Source: Nitrospira sp. | Lineage (GTDB): Bacteria; Nitrospirota; Nitrospiria; Nitrospirales; Nitrospiraceae | Direction: 5' to 3' | Assembly: GCA_030444405.1 (NCBI GenBank) | Contig: JARFPM010000021.1 | Coordinates: 1 to 33,690, forward strand | DNA: 33,690 nucleotides | Shown here: in pieces, positions 709 through 33,690 of the stretch | Numbering within the stretch: the stretch's first letter is position 1 | Layout of the letters: every line of letters starts with the position of its first letter | Translations under genes and position numbers: made by a program | The notes under the pieces: model-generated | The model's database searches: none | Seen by the model: only the letters and a program-made list of their open reading frames with translations | Told to the model about the DNA's origin: nothing

Positions 709-2000
<1,292 letters not shown>

Positions 2001-18114: not shown

Positions 18115-19116
18115 TCAGAGTGTTCCTTCGCCTTTGAGATATCTGCGGAAACGATCCATGAGTTCCGCTCCCAGGGTCCCACCTTCAGGCTTCTTCGTCG
18201 ACGGTTCGGCAAAGTGTCCCCGGATTTCCTGGAGGCGCTTCTCCGCCTGATCATTACCCTGCAGGCGTTTGGTTTTCTGAAGGGCGGTATCAAAGGCATC
18301 GAATGTCAATTCATGATAACCGAATGAGCGGATACGCTTGACGGCTTTCATCATCGCCTGATTCCGAAACGTCGTCAAATGGTCGGAATCGACCTCTTTC
18401 AACCCCAGTTTCCGAGCTCGCCGTTCGGCTGCTTTTCTGATCCCACTGCGCACGAAATCCGGAGAGGCCTGAAGCCGCTTCCATGCCTCGTCGCTCCAGG
18501 CAATTCGTTCCTGAGGTGCTTTCCATAGGTCCTGCAGAAGCGATGCATCGATGTGGAACAGCTTTTTGGCCCTCGCGAGATCTTCCGTATCTCGCTTCAA
18601 CATATCGGTCACGAATTCCAGTGCGATGGGCGGTGATTGCTTTAACTTGTCTTGAAGCAGTGCCAATGCTTCGTCGCTCCATTCCATCGGAGGTCCGCCC
18701 TCCTCGTGAAGGTCACCAAGCGCTTCAACTTTTTCAAACAACTCGACGTTCACTTCGAGATGCCCCCGTTCCTTTGCGATTTCCTCGGCAATCTGCTTAA
18801 TCATCGCCCGCATAAATTCTGGCACCGTATCCAACCGTTCGTTGGCGGCGGCGGTCCATGGAAGACGGCCATTGGCCATCTCTTCGACAGCAGATGCCAT
18901 ACCGGCTTTACCACCCATGCCTCCCATCACCTGTCCCTTAAACTGATCGAGAAGATCTTCGGTGATTACCTCGTATCCCAATTCACGCGTTTTCTTTTCA
19001 GCCAAACGACGGACCATGCCGCGCAGAAATATCGGTGCACGCTCCATTCGTTTGAGCGCACCATCGGTCCAACGGATTTCCGTTGTATTCGTTCGCGAAG
19101 AATCTGATGCCGACAT
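18115..19116 (-). CDS. Tandem PCP_red-domain protein (four repeats)
   Basis: The 333-residue protein has four repeats, each starting with Trp-Ser/Thr-x-x-Ala (Trp16, Trp87, Trp146, Trp207). They continue as Arg-Leu-x-x-x-Pro-x-Phe-x-Arg-x-x-x-(8-12)-Glu/Ala-Arg-x-x-Gly. This is the small helical domain known from the C-terminus of the light-independent protochlorophyllide reductase subunit ChlB/BchB ('PCP_red'). Repeat 3 is divergent. No catalytic subunit or Fe-S ligand accompanies it, and the protein lacks Cys, so a reductase role is unlikely; annotators' 'PCP reductase family protein' reflects the domain only. The start at 19116 has AGAGGG five bases upstream; 19131 lacks one. It follows the IHF/HU gene by 27 bases. 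Function unknown. Confidence 0.8.
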   Translation of the reverse strand: MSASDSSRTNTTEIRWTDGALKRMERAPIFLRGMVRRLAEKKTRELGYEVITEDLLDQFKGQVMGGMGGKAGMASAVEEMANGRLPWTAAANERLDTVPEFMRAMIKQIAEEIAKERGHLEVNVELFEKVEALGDLHEEGGPPMEWSDEALALLQDKLKQSPPIALEFVTDMLKRDTEDLARAKKLFHIDASLLQDLWKAPQERIAWSDEAWKRLQASPDFVRSGIRKAAERRARKLGLKEVDSDHLTTFRNQAMMKAVKRIRSFGYHELTFDAFDTALQKTKRLQGNDQAEKRLQEIRGHFAEPSTKKPEGGTLGAELMDRFRRYLKGEGTL

Positions 19117-19143
19117 TGGTTCCCTCTTCATCCCAAACGATCG

Positions 19144-30152: not shown

Positions 30153-30641
30153 CTACTTGCCCTCCGGTATCTGTTGATACTTCGGGGGAGGCGGCAGAGC
30201 CCCTCGACCGGGCTGGGCCGTACTGCCGCAATCGGGAGGACAGGTCTTATATCCTTGGGTCGAGTCAGGAAAATTGTGCTCCATTTTCCTCAACTGGCAT
30301 TGCGTCAGCCGGCCACCGTCTTTGTTCCCGCATCGAGCAGGAACTGAGGAACTTCCGATTTCGGCATAACCGTCAGGACAGGCCCCACACACACCCAGCA
30401 TGTTTGCCCCCAGCGGCACACATTGCACGAGAGTCGGGTCGCCGTCTTTGCAGATTTCAGGAGATTGGGTGACGCCGGTCGTCGCATAACCATCCGGGCA
30501 CGTTCCGCAGGTCATTCTGATACTTTTCTGCTCCGTGGCTTCTTGCGCGATACCCCGAGACGGAAAGGCGACCACGAGAACAGCCACGAGAGAGAAACTG
30601 TACGCGAGCATTTTGCCGAAGTTTCTGACGTCGCGCGGCAT
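30153..30641 (-). CDS. Cys-rich secreted protein with two 4-Cys repeats, between ruvA and ruvB
   Basis: This 162-residue protein has a Sec signal peptide (cleavage near Gly-Ile-Ala-Gln). Two tandem repeats of about 37 residues follow, of the form Cys-Gly-x-Cys-Pro-Asp-Gly-Tyr-Ala-x-x-Gly-(6)-Pro-x-x-Cys-(8)-Gln-Cys. A partial third Cys-Pro-Pro-Asp-Cys and a Pro-rich tail complete it. There is no CxxCH, so it is not a c-type cytochrome; paired disulfides are expected. Start ATG 30641 has AAGGGGG seven bases upstream; a TTG at 30659 would overlap ruvA. An exported protein inside the ruvAB unit is unexpected; it probably rides on this transcript without a DNA-repair role. Family not recognised. 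Confidence 0.75.
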
Positions 30642-30645
30642 AGGC

Positions 30646-31248
30646 TTACCCCCTTGCAAGTTCCTTGAGCCCTTCGCGAATGAGCTCTTTTAGAGCCAAC
30701 GATTCGGTCGCCGCCTTTGTCACCCGCTTCAAGGCTTCCTTGGCATCCTGAGCACGATAGCCCAAGTTTACCAGAGCGGAGAGTGCGTCCTCGTAAGGGC
30801 CATCCAGCTCGGGCGCGGCAGAGGCTTGAGGACGAGCACCGTGGATTTTGTCCACCTTGTCTTTCAGTTCAAGCGCAATGCGCCCCGCCGATTTCTTCCC
30901 GATCCCGGGAACGGTGGCAAGCTTTTCGACATCCTCAGACTGAATCGCATGGGCAAGATCCGTGACCGACAGGCTCGAAAGCACACTGAGGGCGAGCTTC
31001 GGGCCGATACCCGACACGCTGGTCAGCAGCAAAAACGATTCCTTTTCGCTTTGTGAGAGAAAGCCGAAGAGCTGAATGGCATCTTCACGGAGATGCGTAT
31101 GAATATTCAGCGCGGTAACTTCGTCGAGATTCGGCAGGGCGTAATAGGTGCTCAGTGGAATATGAACTTCGTACCCGACACCCTGCACGTCGAGCGTGAG
31201 GTGGGTGGGTGCCTTGAAGGCTAACCGCCCCGTGAGAAAGGCGATCAT
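30646..31248 (-). CDS. ruvA: Holliday junction DNA-binding protein RuvA
   Basis: RuvA binds four-way junctions as a tetramer and loads RuvB. The 200-residue protein has the OB fold (MIAFLTGRLAFKAPTHLTLDVQGVGYEVHIP), two HhH motifs (SVSGIGPKLAL and VPGIGKKSAGRIALELKDK), a linker, and the RuvB-binding C-terminal three-helix domain (DALSALVNLGYRAQDAKEALKRV). All domains are present at family-typical length. It lies 48 bases after yebC with no ruvC between them, and four bases before the Cys-rich secreted-protein gene. Confidence 0.96.
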   Translation of the reverse strand: MIAFLTGRLAFKAPTHLTLDVQGVGYEVHIPLSTYYALPNLDEVTALNIHTHLREDAIQLFGFLSQSEKESFLLLTSVSGIGPKLALSVLSSLSVTDLAHAIQSEDVEKLATVPGIGKKSAGRIALELKDKVDKIHGARPQASAAPELDGPYEDALSALVNLGYRAQDAKEALKRVTKAATESLALKELIREGLKELARG

Positions 31249-31296: not shown

Positions 31297-32055
31297 TTAT
31301 CCCGCTGCGGTTGCGGCCACTTTCTCCATGACTTCGTCCGGGATATCAAAATTCGCGTGAACTTTCTGCACATCATCGTGCTCGTCCAAGATTTCCATCA
31401 GCTTGAGCATCTGTTCGGCAGATTTTTCGTCCAGACGGATCGTATTCTGCGGGATGAAGGTGATTTCGGCCAGGACTGTGTCGATTTTGGCATCGACCAA
31501 CGCCTTCTTCACCGCCTCAAAATCTTGAGGACTGGTGAGGACCTCATAACTCTTCTCACCGACCTTCACGTCTTCCGCCCCGGCGTCGAGAGCCAGCGAG
31601 AGCAGGGTATCTTCATCGACCTTCCCCTTCTCAATCGTGATGAGCCCCTTCTTCTGAAACTGCCAGGCAACGGCGCCTGCCTCCGACATATTCCCGTGAT
31701 TTTTCGTGAGGAGACTGCGAATCTCCGCGACGGTCCGGTTCCGGTTGTCGCTCGTAATCTCCAGAAGAAGTGCAGTCCCTCCGGGGCCATACCCTTCTAA
31801 AGGAAATTCCTCATAGGTCACACCGGGCAGTTCTCCCGTCCCTCGCTGGACGGCTTTCTTCATCGTATCGCCAGGCATATTGGCTTCCTTGGCCTTGGCG
31901 ATGGCCAGACGCAGCCGGGGATTTCCGTCTGGGTCACCGCCTGACCGAGCCGCAATGGTGAGCTCCCGGATGATTCGCGTGAAGATCTTCCCGCGCTTCG
32001 CGTCCTGGGCTCCTTTGTGCCGTTTAATCGTGGCCCAGTGACTATGTCCACCCAT
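31297..32055 (-). CDS. yebC: YebC/PmpR-family protein (TACO1-like)
   Basis: A 252-residue YebC with the invariant start MGGHSHWATIKRHKGAQDAKRGKIFTR-type segment, the central EGYGPGGTALLLEITSDNRNRT, and the C-terminal acidic domain. The family was first described as transcriptional regulators; recent work ties members to ribosome function at stalling sequences. AGGAGG lies seven bases before the ATG. yebC directly upstream of ruv genes is a common order, and RuvC normally lies between; here it does not. A TTGACA at 32166-32161 on the minus strand may be part of its promoter, though no clear -10 follows. Confidence 0.94.
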   Translation of the reverse strand: MGGHSHWATIKRHKGAQDAKRGKIFTRIIRELTIAARSGGDPDGNPRLRLAIAKAKEANMPGDTMKKAVQRGTGELPGVTYEEFPLEGYGPGGTALLLEITSDNRNRTVAEIRSLLTKNHGNMSEAGAVAWQFQKKGLITIEKGKVDEDTLLSLALDAGAEDVKVGEKSYEVLTSPQDFEAVKKALVDAKIDTVLAEITFIPQNTIRLDEKSAEQMLKLMEILDEHDDVQKVHANFDIPDEVMEKVAATAAG

Positions 32056-32195: not shown

Positions 32196-32525
32196 TTATT
32201 CGGAATAGTCGAGCAGCAGAAGCCCAAAGAGCACATCACATAGTCCGGCGAAGTGATGATTGAACTCGGAATATGCAATCCCTTCTGATGATCCTTCCCA
32301 ACCTCCACTGGCATCGCCACCTTGATGATCATGTGCTGGATCTGTTTGACTCGAGCGATCGTGACGTTGTGAATGTGATTGTGCCTGTACTTCTGAAATC
32401 CAGGTGAGCGCGACAATGACGAACAGGAGGACGGATATCGGATAGGACCACCGCTTGACACGCAAGCCTCTCCGCTCGTAGGAGCGTGGACGATCCATAT
32501 AGATTAGAGGACACGCCCCATTCAT
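32196..32525 (-). pseudogene. Truncated paralogue of the His-rich membrane protein
   Basis: This 109-residue frame copies the N-terminal part of the next gene upstream (32526-33281): signal peptide ending Val-Gln-Ala-Gln, a His/Ser/Asp-rich linker, Trp-Glu-Gly-Ser, then Ala-Tyr-Ser-Glu-Phe-Asn-His-His-Phe-Ala-Gly-Leu, identical over that block. It stops after half a membrane helix (LLLLDYSE). DNA divergence is substantial, so the duplication is not recent. The first ATG directly follows the stop of the full gene, but the aligned start of the signal peptide lies about 24 codons further in, at a weak TTG. It is either a decayed copy or a short secreted/anchored His-rich protein that retained this motif. 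I lean to remnant. Confidence 0.6.
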
Positions 32526-33281
32526 CTACTCGAAATACAAGAGAAGCTGAATGCCTATTACGATCAAGAATCCCGCCCAAGCCACTTCCCACCGCTTCAC
32601 TGGATGAGTCGAGGCACCGGCAGCCCACGAGACCATCGCATTCGAGATGGCGGCCCCAACACCGAGGCTTCCGAGAAGTGCATGGTGCAGTTCGATCGTG
32701 TGATTCGCCGGGTGATTCCCATGTGAGTGGACAAAGAGCAACAGCGCTCCGGTGAAGCCAAAGAACAGCAACGGAGCCGCCCAGGCCGGATGGCGAGCCC
32801 AACCGATTCGACGAAGCGTCTCGCTCACCGCTGCGGTCAAAGCAAACAGTCCATAGAATTTATGCTGGAGCATTTCTAGATCTTGTCCGGAAAATGTCTG
32901 AACAAAACTCAGTGACCCGATCGGCCAAGCCTCATGGTCACTCCAGACCAGCAGATAGGTTCCGATGACTCCGAGTGCACTGGGCAGAACGAGACGAGTC
33001 CAGGATGGCAACGGATACCGCAGCGCATGCCCTAACTCAGCAAAACCAAACAGCAGCACGAATAACCCCGCGAAGTGATGGTTGAACTCCGAGTAGGCGA
33101 CTCCTTGAGCCGACCCTTCCCACTTTTCACCGCCATGCGTGCCATGAGAACTATGCGCGGCGCCTCCCTCATCGGAGATCTCGGGGTGACTAGACAGTTG
33201 CGCTTGTACGTTGGACAGCCAGTTGAACGGAATGACGACTAGGATGAAAACCGACAACAAACAGAGCCAAAACTTCTTCAT
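32526..33281 (-). CDS. His-rich six-helix membrane protein, internal triplication
   Basis: ATG 33281 (GGGAG nine bases upstream) gives 251 residues. A signal peptide runs to about residue 27 (VQA-Q). A His/Ser/Gly-rich outer segment follows (30-58), then six predicted membrane helices. These fall into three two-helix units, each led by His at the membrane edge: HHFAGLF (69-), QHKFYGLF (140-) and HHALLGSL (199-). Each unit's second helix starts near a Trp. A HSHGNHPANH cluster lies between helices 4 and 5. The pattern suggests metal or heme coordination, as in copper- or cytochrome-b-type membrane proteins, but I cannot name a family. A truncated copy follows directly. Confidence 0.75.
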   Translation of the reverse strand: MKKFWLCLLSVFILVVIPFNWLSNVQAQLSSHPEISDEGGAAHSSHGTHGGEKWEGSAQGVAYSEFNHHFAGLFVLLFGFAELGHALRYPLPSWTRLVLPSALGVIGTYLLVWSDHEAWPIGSLSFVQTFSGQDLEMLQHKFYGLFALTAAVSETLRRIGWARHPAWAAPLLFFGFTGALLLFVHSHGNHPANHTIELHHALLGSLGVGAAISNAMVSWAAGASTHPVKRWEVAWAGFLIVIGIQLLLYFE

Positions 33282-33317: not shown

Positions 33318-33349
33318 GAAGGCCCATCCAGACGGCCAGATGGGCCTTC
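33318..33349. terminator. Strong 11-bp hairpin between PCP_red and membrane-protein genes
   Basis: GAAGGCCCATC (33318-33328) pairs exactly with 33339-33349 over a 10-base loop. It lies 27 bases after the stop of the minus-strand PCP_red gene. On that strand a T-run (GTTTTTGG) comes before rather than after the stem, so it may stop transcripts imperfectly or act mainly as an mRNA 3' end. Confidence 0.55.
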
Positions 33350-33376
33350 CAAAAACCTGATGCATGCTGCTCTGAA

Positions 33377-33690
33377 CTACATGAACTTCATGAACTTGTC
33401 TTTCGCTTCATCCATCACCTGGGCGGTGATGGTCGACACCCCACGTTCCTTGGCCAGACGCTCAACCTCTTTTCGAGCCATGGGACGTATAAAATCTGGG
33501 ATATTGTCAAGTCGTTGTTCCGCCTCGCGTGACCACGTCATGCCATCGGGCGAATCATTTTTCGAATCGTCCATCACTTGCAGCGTGATGGTCTTGAAAC
33601 CCTGTTTGCGCGCATAGGTCTCCACGCTGCTCTGGACCATCGGTTTTACGAAGGCTGGAAGCCGGTCGAGCTTCTCCTTGGCGTCGGGCG
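33377..33690 (-). CDS. PCP_red-domain repeat protein, N-terminus beyond the window
   Basis: The C-terminal 104 residues are visible; the frame is open through 33690. It holds two tandem copies of the same domain as the gene at 18115: Asp-Ala-Lys-Glu-Lys-Leu-Asp-Arg-Leu-Pro-Ala-Phe-Val-Lys-Pro-Met at the window edge, and Trp-Ser-Arg-Glu-Ala-Glu-Gln-Arg-Leu-Asp-Asn-Ile-Pro-Asp-Phe-Ile-Arg-Pro-Met at 33538 and below. Each is followed by a helix and a Gly-x-x-x-Ile-Thr-x-Gln-Val-Met-Asp strand-helix unit. These copies are more regular than those in the other gene. No catalytic residues are visible. An ATG at 33640 would cut a domain in half, so the real start is outside. Confidence 0.8.
   Translation of the reverse strand, partial: PDAKEKLDRLPAFVKPMVQSSVETYARKQGFKTITLQVMDDSKNDSPDGMTWSREAEQRLDNIPDFIRPMARKEVERLAKERGVSTITAQVMDEAKDKFMKFM

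Follow-up and report, generated by a model that had tools for sequence, protein, structure and literature searches.

A gene lying close to one end of a stretch of Nitrospira DNA raises the question of what a membrane protein whose odd-numbered helices are each headed by His residues may be, how it arose, and what these residues may bind. The gene belongs to the window, i.e. the whole stretch of 33,690 nucleotides that was analyzed, which comes from a Nitrospira-type assembly of 3.46 Mb. The protein is common in nitrite-oxidizing Nitrospira and their kin and lacks a curated family model. The features discussed below are collected in Table 1.

Table 1. Features of the window that bear on the six-helix membrane protein
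Feature	Position	Strand	Remarks
Six-helix membrane protein gene	32526..33281	-	251 aa; N-terminal signal or anchor segment and six helices
N-terminal hydrophobic segment, residues 1-30 (signal peptide or anchor)	33192..33281	-	Predicted helix 2-30; from sequence
His-rich extracytoplasmic tail, residues 31-56	33114..33191	-	12.7% His over 45 homologs; low model confidence
Hairpin unit A, residues 57-126	32904..33113	-	H68-x3-G72, then W94 and W119-P120; hhalign
Hairpin unit B, residues 127-191	32709..32903	-	E136, H140-x3-G144, E154, then H185-S-H187; hhalign
Hairpin unit C, residues 188-251	32529..32720	-	H200-x3-G204, Y249; hhalign
Perfect 11-bp stem-loop GAAGGCCCATC...GATGGGCCTTC	33318..33349		Separates the target gene from its upstream neighbor; kept in L004
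Upstream neighbor (cut by the window end)	33377..33688	-	PCP_red repeats; conserved; complete copies have a zinc-ribbon-like segment before them
Downstream conserved neighbor, YebC-like	31297..32055	-	Named by sequence and gene order
Second tandem copy, remnant	32196..32525	-	109 aa, in frame; the two ends of the paralog are fused and the intervening helices are missing
CTCTTTGGGCTT, 12 bp, single copy at the deletion junction	32220..32231	-	Comparison with L004

Topology, distribution, and conserved residues

An alternative, longer ORF of the gene begins at 33365 on the reverse strand. The start at 33281 (codon 1) is favored because the stem-loop, likely a terminator or leader element, sits between both. 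In the AF2 model of the protein (mean pLDDT 77.6, higher in helices), the N-terminal helix is followed by six others, at residues 58-86, 93-113, 135-159, 165-183, 193-223, and 228-247. Basic residues are scarce in the loops after helices 2 and 4 (mean K+R of 0.4-0.6 vs 1.2-2.8 in the loops after helices 1, 3, and 5), which, by the positive-inside rule, argues for a periplasmic His face and supports a topology in which the N terminus and these two loops would lie on the periplasmic side. An earlier note on this DNA had placed the His residues that start the odd-numbered helices on one face of the membrane and had described a His-rich extracytoplasmic head; both features agree with this charge distribution and with the His content, which over the 45 homologs reaches 12.7% in the tail ahead of helix 1 and 20.8% in the loop after helix 4.

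No model of Pfam, NCBIfam, or PHROG covers the protein, and no solved chain was matched by sequence. When 84,980 species genomes were scanned with the window protein as the sole query, 35 loci came up, all in Nitrospirota, and a profile search found the family in 107 of 395 Nitrospirota genomes and 23 of 169 genera, nearly all of one order. The distribution is mainly within Nitrospirales and, in a search conducted mostly within the phylum, confined to Nitrospirota; the plasmid and phage collections searched contained no relatives. The protein represents a hitherto undescribed family of six-helix inner-membrane proteins without a curated model. LiaF-TM was considered as an assignment and rejected: it matches 21 of 32 members weakly (the best E value, 1.5e-5, remains below its cut-off) and over single hairpins only, as generic helix pairs would. 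The remotest standalone relative, L073:6784-7536, comes from another family of the phylum and carries a Met-rich insertion ahead of its last His.

In an alignment of 45 sequences, H68, H140, H185, H200, W119, and P120 are invariant, and H187, G72, G122, E136, G243, L246, and Y249 are kept in 44. The partner of the leading His in the HH pairs is poorly kept (H69 in 24 of 45 and H199 in 28 of 45). A second alignment (n = 32), with identities down to 18%, gave the same six invariant residues.

One hairpin repeated three times

The earlier note had read the protein as a two-helix hairpin repeated three times, each unit led by a His-containing block. The three blocks are indeed present at the head of the odd-numbered helices, namely HHFAGLF (from H68), QHKFYGLF (H140), and HHALLGSL (H199/H200), and the second helix follows a Trp-containing loop as described, with a Trp in each hairpin turn or at the start of the second helix (W94, W161/W167, and the RWEVAW segment). 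The repeat itself was examined by hhalign self-comparison, for which the 45-sequence profile was cut into units A, B, and C, units B and C as tested sharing four residues at their ends. The null consisted of 60 block-column shuffles per pair, with local composition kept. Units A and B align with a probability of 95% (E 3.8e-8, score 39.8 vs 26.6 for the best shuffle), A and C with 89% (E 2.2e-6, 31.6 vs 26.8), and B and C with 76% (E 2.3e-5, 26.6 vs 21.3), so that for every pair none of the 60 shuffles reached the observed score. Furthermore, control hairpins taken from CopD, the one unrelated membrane family available, scored at most 15.7 in 27 comparisons, against 26.6-39.8 for the units. 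The motif common to the three units is H-x3-G (H68/G72, H140/G144, and H200/G204), which is in register in the hhalign alignments.

The main observation of the earlier note is right because the units align significantly, with H68, H140, and H200 in register, and none of the known non-repeated families was clearly matched; such a match is what the note had named as contrary evidence. As judged from its sequence, the protein is one two-helix hairpin present three times by way of two duplications, and it offers a clean example of a membrane protein built in this manner in which every unit has retained a His.

Predicted fold and closest structural relatives

With VIA-align, the best match of the window model is a designed six-helix barrel (8qad, Z 16.4), followed by human TMEM45A (7oqz) as best natural chain (Z 15.1, rmsd 3.0 over 168 residues) and then by SatP and UreI at Z of about 12, rhodopsins staying below 8. 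Foldseek compares the same model with TMEM45A at a probability of 0.99 and an E value of 0.36, which is not significant. A replicate model was made for the C-terminal domain of L070, a CopD fusion protein presented below; this domain shares 22% identity with the window protein, and the input alignments of the two models share sequences. It has a pLDDT of 86 (above 93 in helices), and here TMEM45A ranks first with Foldseek (probability 1.00, E 0.066), ahead of UreI, while VIA gives Z 14.1 for TMEM45A over 171 residues, with 19% identity against 7-11% in the rows just below, Z 12.9 for UreI, and 11.8 for SatP. Two viral entries of BFVD, A0A3G5AC47 from Hyperionvirus and A0A1B3AYD7 from Gordonia phage Bantam, both uncharacterized, also match the L070 model with Foldseek probabilities of 1.00 and 0.99, respectively.

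The similarity to TMEM45A covers all six helices, with His residues opening helices 1, 3, and 5 in both proteins, and extends to an H-x-H after helix 4 that is found in TMEM45A and TMEM45B. Both structural alignments open with H68/H43 on the first His of TMEM45A, plus or minus one residue, and the Gly that follows this conserved His by four positions likewise falls on its TMEM45A counterpart to within one residue. In a forced in-order alignment, H68, H140, H185, H187, and H200 correspond to H6, H94, H140, H142, and H152 of the TMEM45A chain, with a score that is not above shuffles. At the sequence level, comparison with two TMEM45 sequences gave an hhalign probability of 0.4% and, in two kinds of profile alignment, z of 0.8 and 0.5 vs block shuffles, and hmmsearch without filters was not significant between TMEM45 and the window family. 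The TMEM45A sequence was taken from the PDB alignment; for TMEM45B, we used what we take to be its sequence, which matches the TMEM45A chain strongly. PF04819 (DUF716) does not match the window protein, nor does any of 20 related genomes have a match above its cut-off. In a ranking by a TMEM45 profile, members of the family make up 64 of the top 100 vs 95 of 1087, for which hydrophobicity may account. The two also differ in that TMEM45 has a seventh helix, whereas the window protein stops at helix 6, and in that TMEM45 has neither a signal segment nor a His-rich tail. We regard TMEM45 as nearest in structure to the window family, and common descent of the two is likely but unproven.

TMEM45 is a eukaryotic endomembrane protein whose biochemical function is still called unknown in a 2026 review (PMC13056615). 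Since TMEM45A, the top structural match, has no known activity (PMC13056615), an enzyme is possible, and the His residues, E136, and W119-P120 might then form the periplasmic-face active site of a membrane metalloenzyme, either a hydrolase or an oxidoreductase. The near invariance of the His residues, the acidic residue, and the W-P motif across 18-77% identity would suit such a site; however, no enzyme family was matched by sequence or fold, and we regard this explanation as distinctly unlikely.

The earlier note knew of no named family with exactly this layout, a statement that does not hold for the arrangement of the helices. The three-hairpin layout has precedents because published accounts depict both UreI and SatP as sets of three two-helix hairpins: UreI has six helices, periplasmic N and C termini, and two periplasmic loops (PMC12087780), and SatP has threefold pseudo-symmetric hairpins around a six-helix pore (PMC4602095). 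To these is added TMEM45A as best natural match to two models. Helicobacter pylori UreI (3ux4, 6nsj) thus has in common with the window protein the three hairpins and the sidedness of termini and loops, but it shows no sequence match, and the H-x3-G pattern and the H-x-H are not described for it. SatP (5ys3, 5zug) has the same threefold hairpins and six helices, again with no sequence match, and we know of no His cluster in it. The Pfam models AmiS/UreI (PF02293) and SatP/AceTr (PF01184) do not match the window protein at E up to 10.

These precedents give rise to another explanation, in which the protein may conduct small solutes in the manner of UreI and SatP, the barrel being a pore and the periplasmic His residues pH sensors for gating rather than ligands. 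Helix number, termini, and loop sidedness are those of UreI (PMC12087780), and the structural scores over both models (Z 12.2-12.9 for UreI and 11.6-12.3 for SatP, whose hairpins are likewise threefold pseudo-symmetric; PMC4602095) are in line with it. However, five conserved His residues arranged as H-x3-G and H-x-H look more like a ligand set than a gate, Pfam scans gave no match to a UreI or SatP model, and the CopD fusion described hereafter suggests a metal, so that we consider a channel of this type unlikely.

Relation to copper proteins

In four genomes of a neighboring family (f2), the domain forms the C-terminal part of a protein of 540-555 residues (L069-L072) whose N-terminal part is CopD (PF05425, E 1e-15 to 3e-19), the CopD match being confined to the latter. 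Furthermore, in L070 and L071, a CopC gene (PF04234, E 8e-19 and 1e-19) ends 11-16 bases upstream of the fusion. The resemblance to CopD and CopC-CopD uptake systems such as B. subtilis YcnJ, in which both the CopC and CopD domains are required for copper supply to an oxidase (PMC13344008), resides in this fusion partner in four genomes and in the adjacent CopC in two. The domain itself is unlike CopD, as comparisons of CopD hairpins with the units stay at background and the CopD model (PF05425) has no match in the window protein. The fusion proteins form a separate, distant clade with 18-22% identity to the window protein; because of this separation, function is carried over to the window gene only by inference. 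A CopD protein encoded by the same genome as the window gene (L101:792-2807, contig C13; 671 aa) was considered as a carrier of the hairpin domain; this proved wrong, as what it has instead is a CxxCH resembling that of cytochrome c and a thioredoxin-like region at the C terminus, a combination also present in L103.

Elsewhere, the CopD slot is fused to copper-delivery domains, as in the CopD-CtaG fusion of Corynebacterium (PMC13344008), and CtaG, a His-containing membrane domain that is CopD-fused in other bacteria (PMC13344008), is in these respects similar to the domain studied here. The slot that CtaG occupies in Corynebacterium is the one taken by the domain in L069-L072, and the CtaG model (PF09678) has no match in any of 198 Nitrospirota genomes, a control being detected in two named genomes. 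The protein could accordingly be a copper-delivery factor for an oxidase or another periplasmic copper enzyme, standing where other phyla have CtaG. However, PF09678 is also unmatched in the four fusion proteins, and the window gene does not adjoin an oxidase; we hold such a role to be very unlikely.

A candidate metal site

The CopD fusion in four genomes and the adjoining CopC gene in two are the reasons why a site for copper, or for another metal, at the periplasmic face of a channel-like three-hairpin barrel is favored here; we put it forward tentatively, with a confidence somewhat short of even. The earlier note had suggested that the His residues would suit intramembrane metal or heme binding. 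The metal part is plausible on indirect grounds, i.e. the fusion to CopD and the adjacent CopC in relatives, whereas nothing was found in favor of heme. Indeed, a heme or quinone redox protein akin to cytochrome b561 could be imagined from the paired His residues in membrane helices and from the eukaryotic cytochrome b561 model (Cytochrom_B561, PF03188), whose single hit among 29 members has an E value of 0.03, but the His residues lie near helix ends on one face and form no membrane-spanning pairs, and no b561 structure appears in the top structural rows. We consider it highly improbable.

In the favored metal-site reading, the three hairpins would encircle an axis, an arrangement also seen in UreI, SatP, and human TMEM45A, and we infer that the five His residues (68, 140, 185, 187, and 200) group at the periplasmic mouth of the barrel, with W119-P120 and E136 near in sequence. 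They would serve as ligands of a transition metal, our best guess being copper. The His-rich tail may capture the metal and feed the site, from which it could be stored, passed on, or let through with partners of the CopC/CopD type, in a role in copper supply or detoxification. Metal binding, the identity of the metal, and a preference for transport over storage, chaperoning, or catalysis are presumptive in this scheme. The following observations count against the argument: the neighbors of the window gene (the PCP_red gene, mrp, cysDN, yebC, and ruvAB) are not copper-related; the CopD fusion occurs in a distant clade only, the CopD gene of the window genome being located elsewhere; and, as regards the fold, Z values up to about 13 between helical barrels can reflect a common arrangement.

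Should common ancestry explain the resemblance to TMEM45A, the CopD fusion of a bacterial relative would suggest metal handling as the first hypothesis that can be tested for TMEM45/DUF716. The broader proposal would be that the family is a bacterial branch of TMEM45/DUF716 and that the five shared His residues form one metal (copper) site as the ancestral function of the superfamily, human TMEM45A and TMEM45B included; we regard this as rather doubtful.

Gene neighborhood and paralogs

In Nitrospira, the usual gene order is cysD-cysN, mrp-like ATPase, zinc-ribbon/PCP_red gene, target gene, yebC, ruvA, a small Cys-rich gene, ruvB, and pheA, several of these names resting on sequence and gene order. 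This conserved order indicates that the target gene is an old, mostly vertically inherited resident.

The gene is directly followed by the remnant of a second copy. Intact tandem paralogs occur in several relatives (L004, L006, L026, and L088), where they form a supported clade of their own. In the intact copy L004:5726-6517, CTCTTTGGGCTT is present twice, near helix 1 and in helix 6, at the ends of the stretch that is missing in the window, so that the remnant apparently results from a deletion between two direct repeats of CTCTTTGGGCTT. A third copy, of which the C-terminal 90 aa are encoded at the edge of contig C69 of the same genome (L086:2-271), belongs to the second paralog clade by its residues.

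Other genes of the window deserve mention. A Cys-rich exported small protein is encoded between ruvA and ruvB (30153-30659, reverse strand); it is found in 22 loci and has no Pfam match. PCP_red repeats, named after the C terminus of protochlorophyllide reductase, occur here in a non-photosynthetic genome, and the product of 18115-19131 (reverse strand) looks like a longer relative of the PCP_red repeat protein upstream of the target gene. At the other end of the window, the end of a tyrosine-recombinase-like integrase ORF (709-1989, forward strand) overlaps a tRNA-Arg(tcg) gene (1924-2000, reverse strand), a layout typical of the attachment of an island or a prophage.
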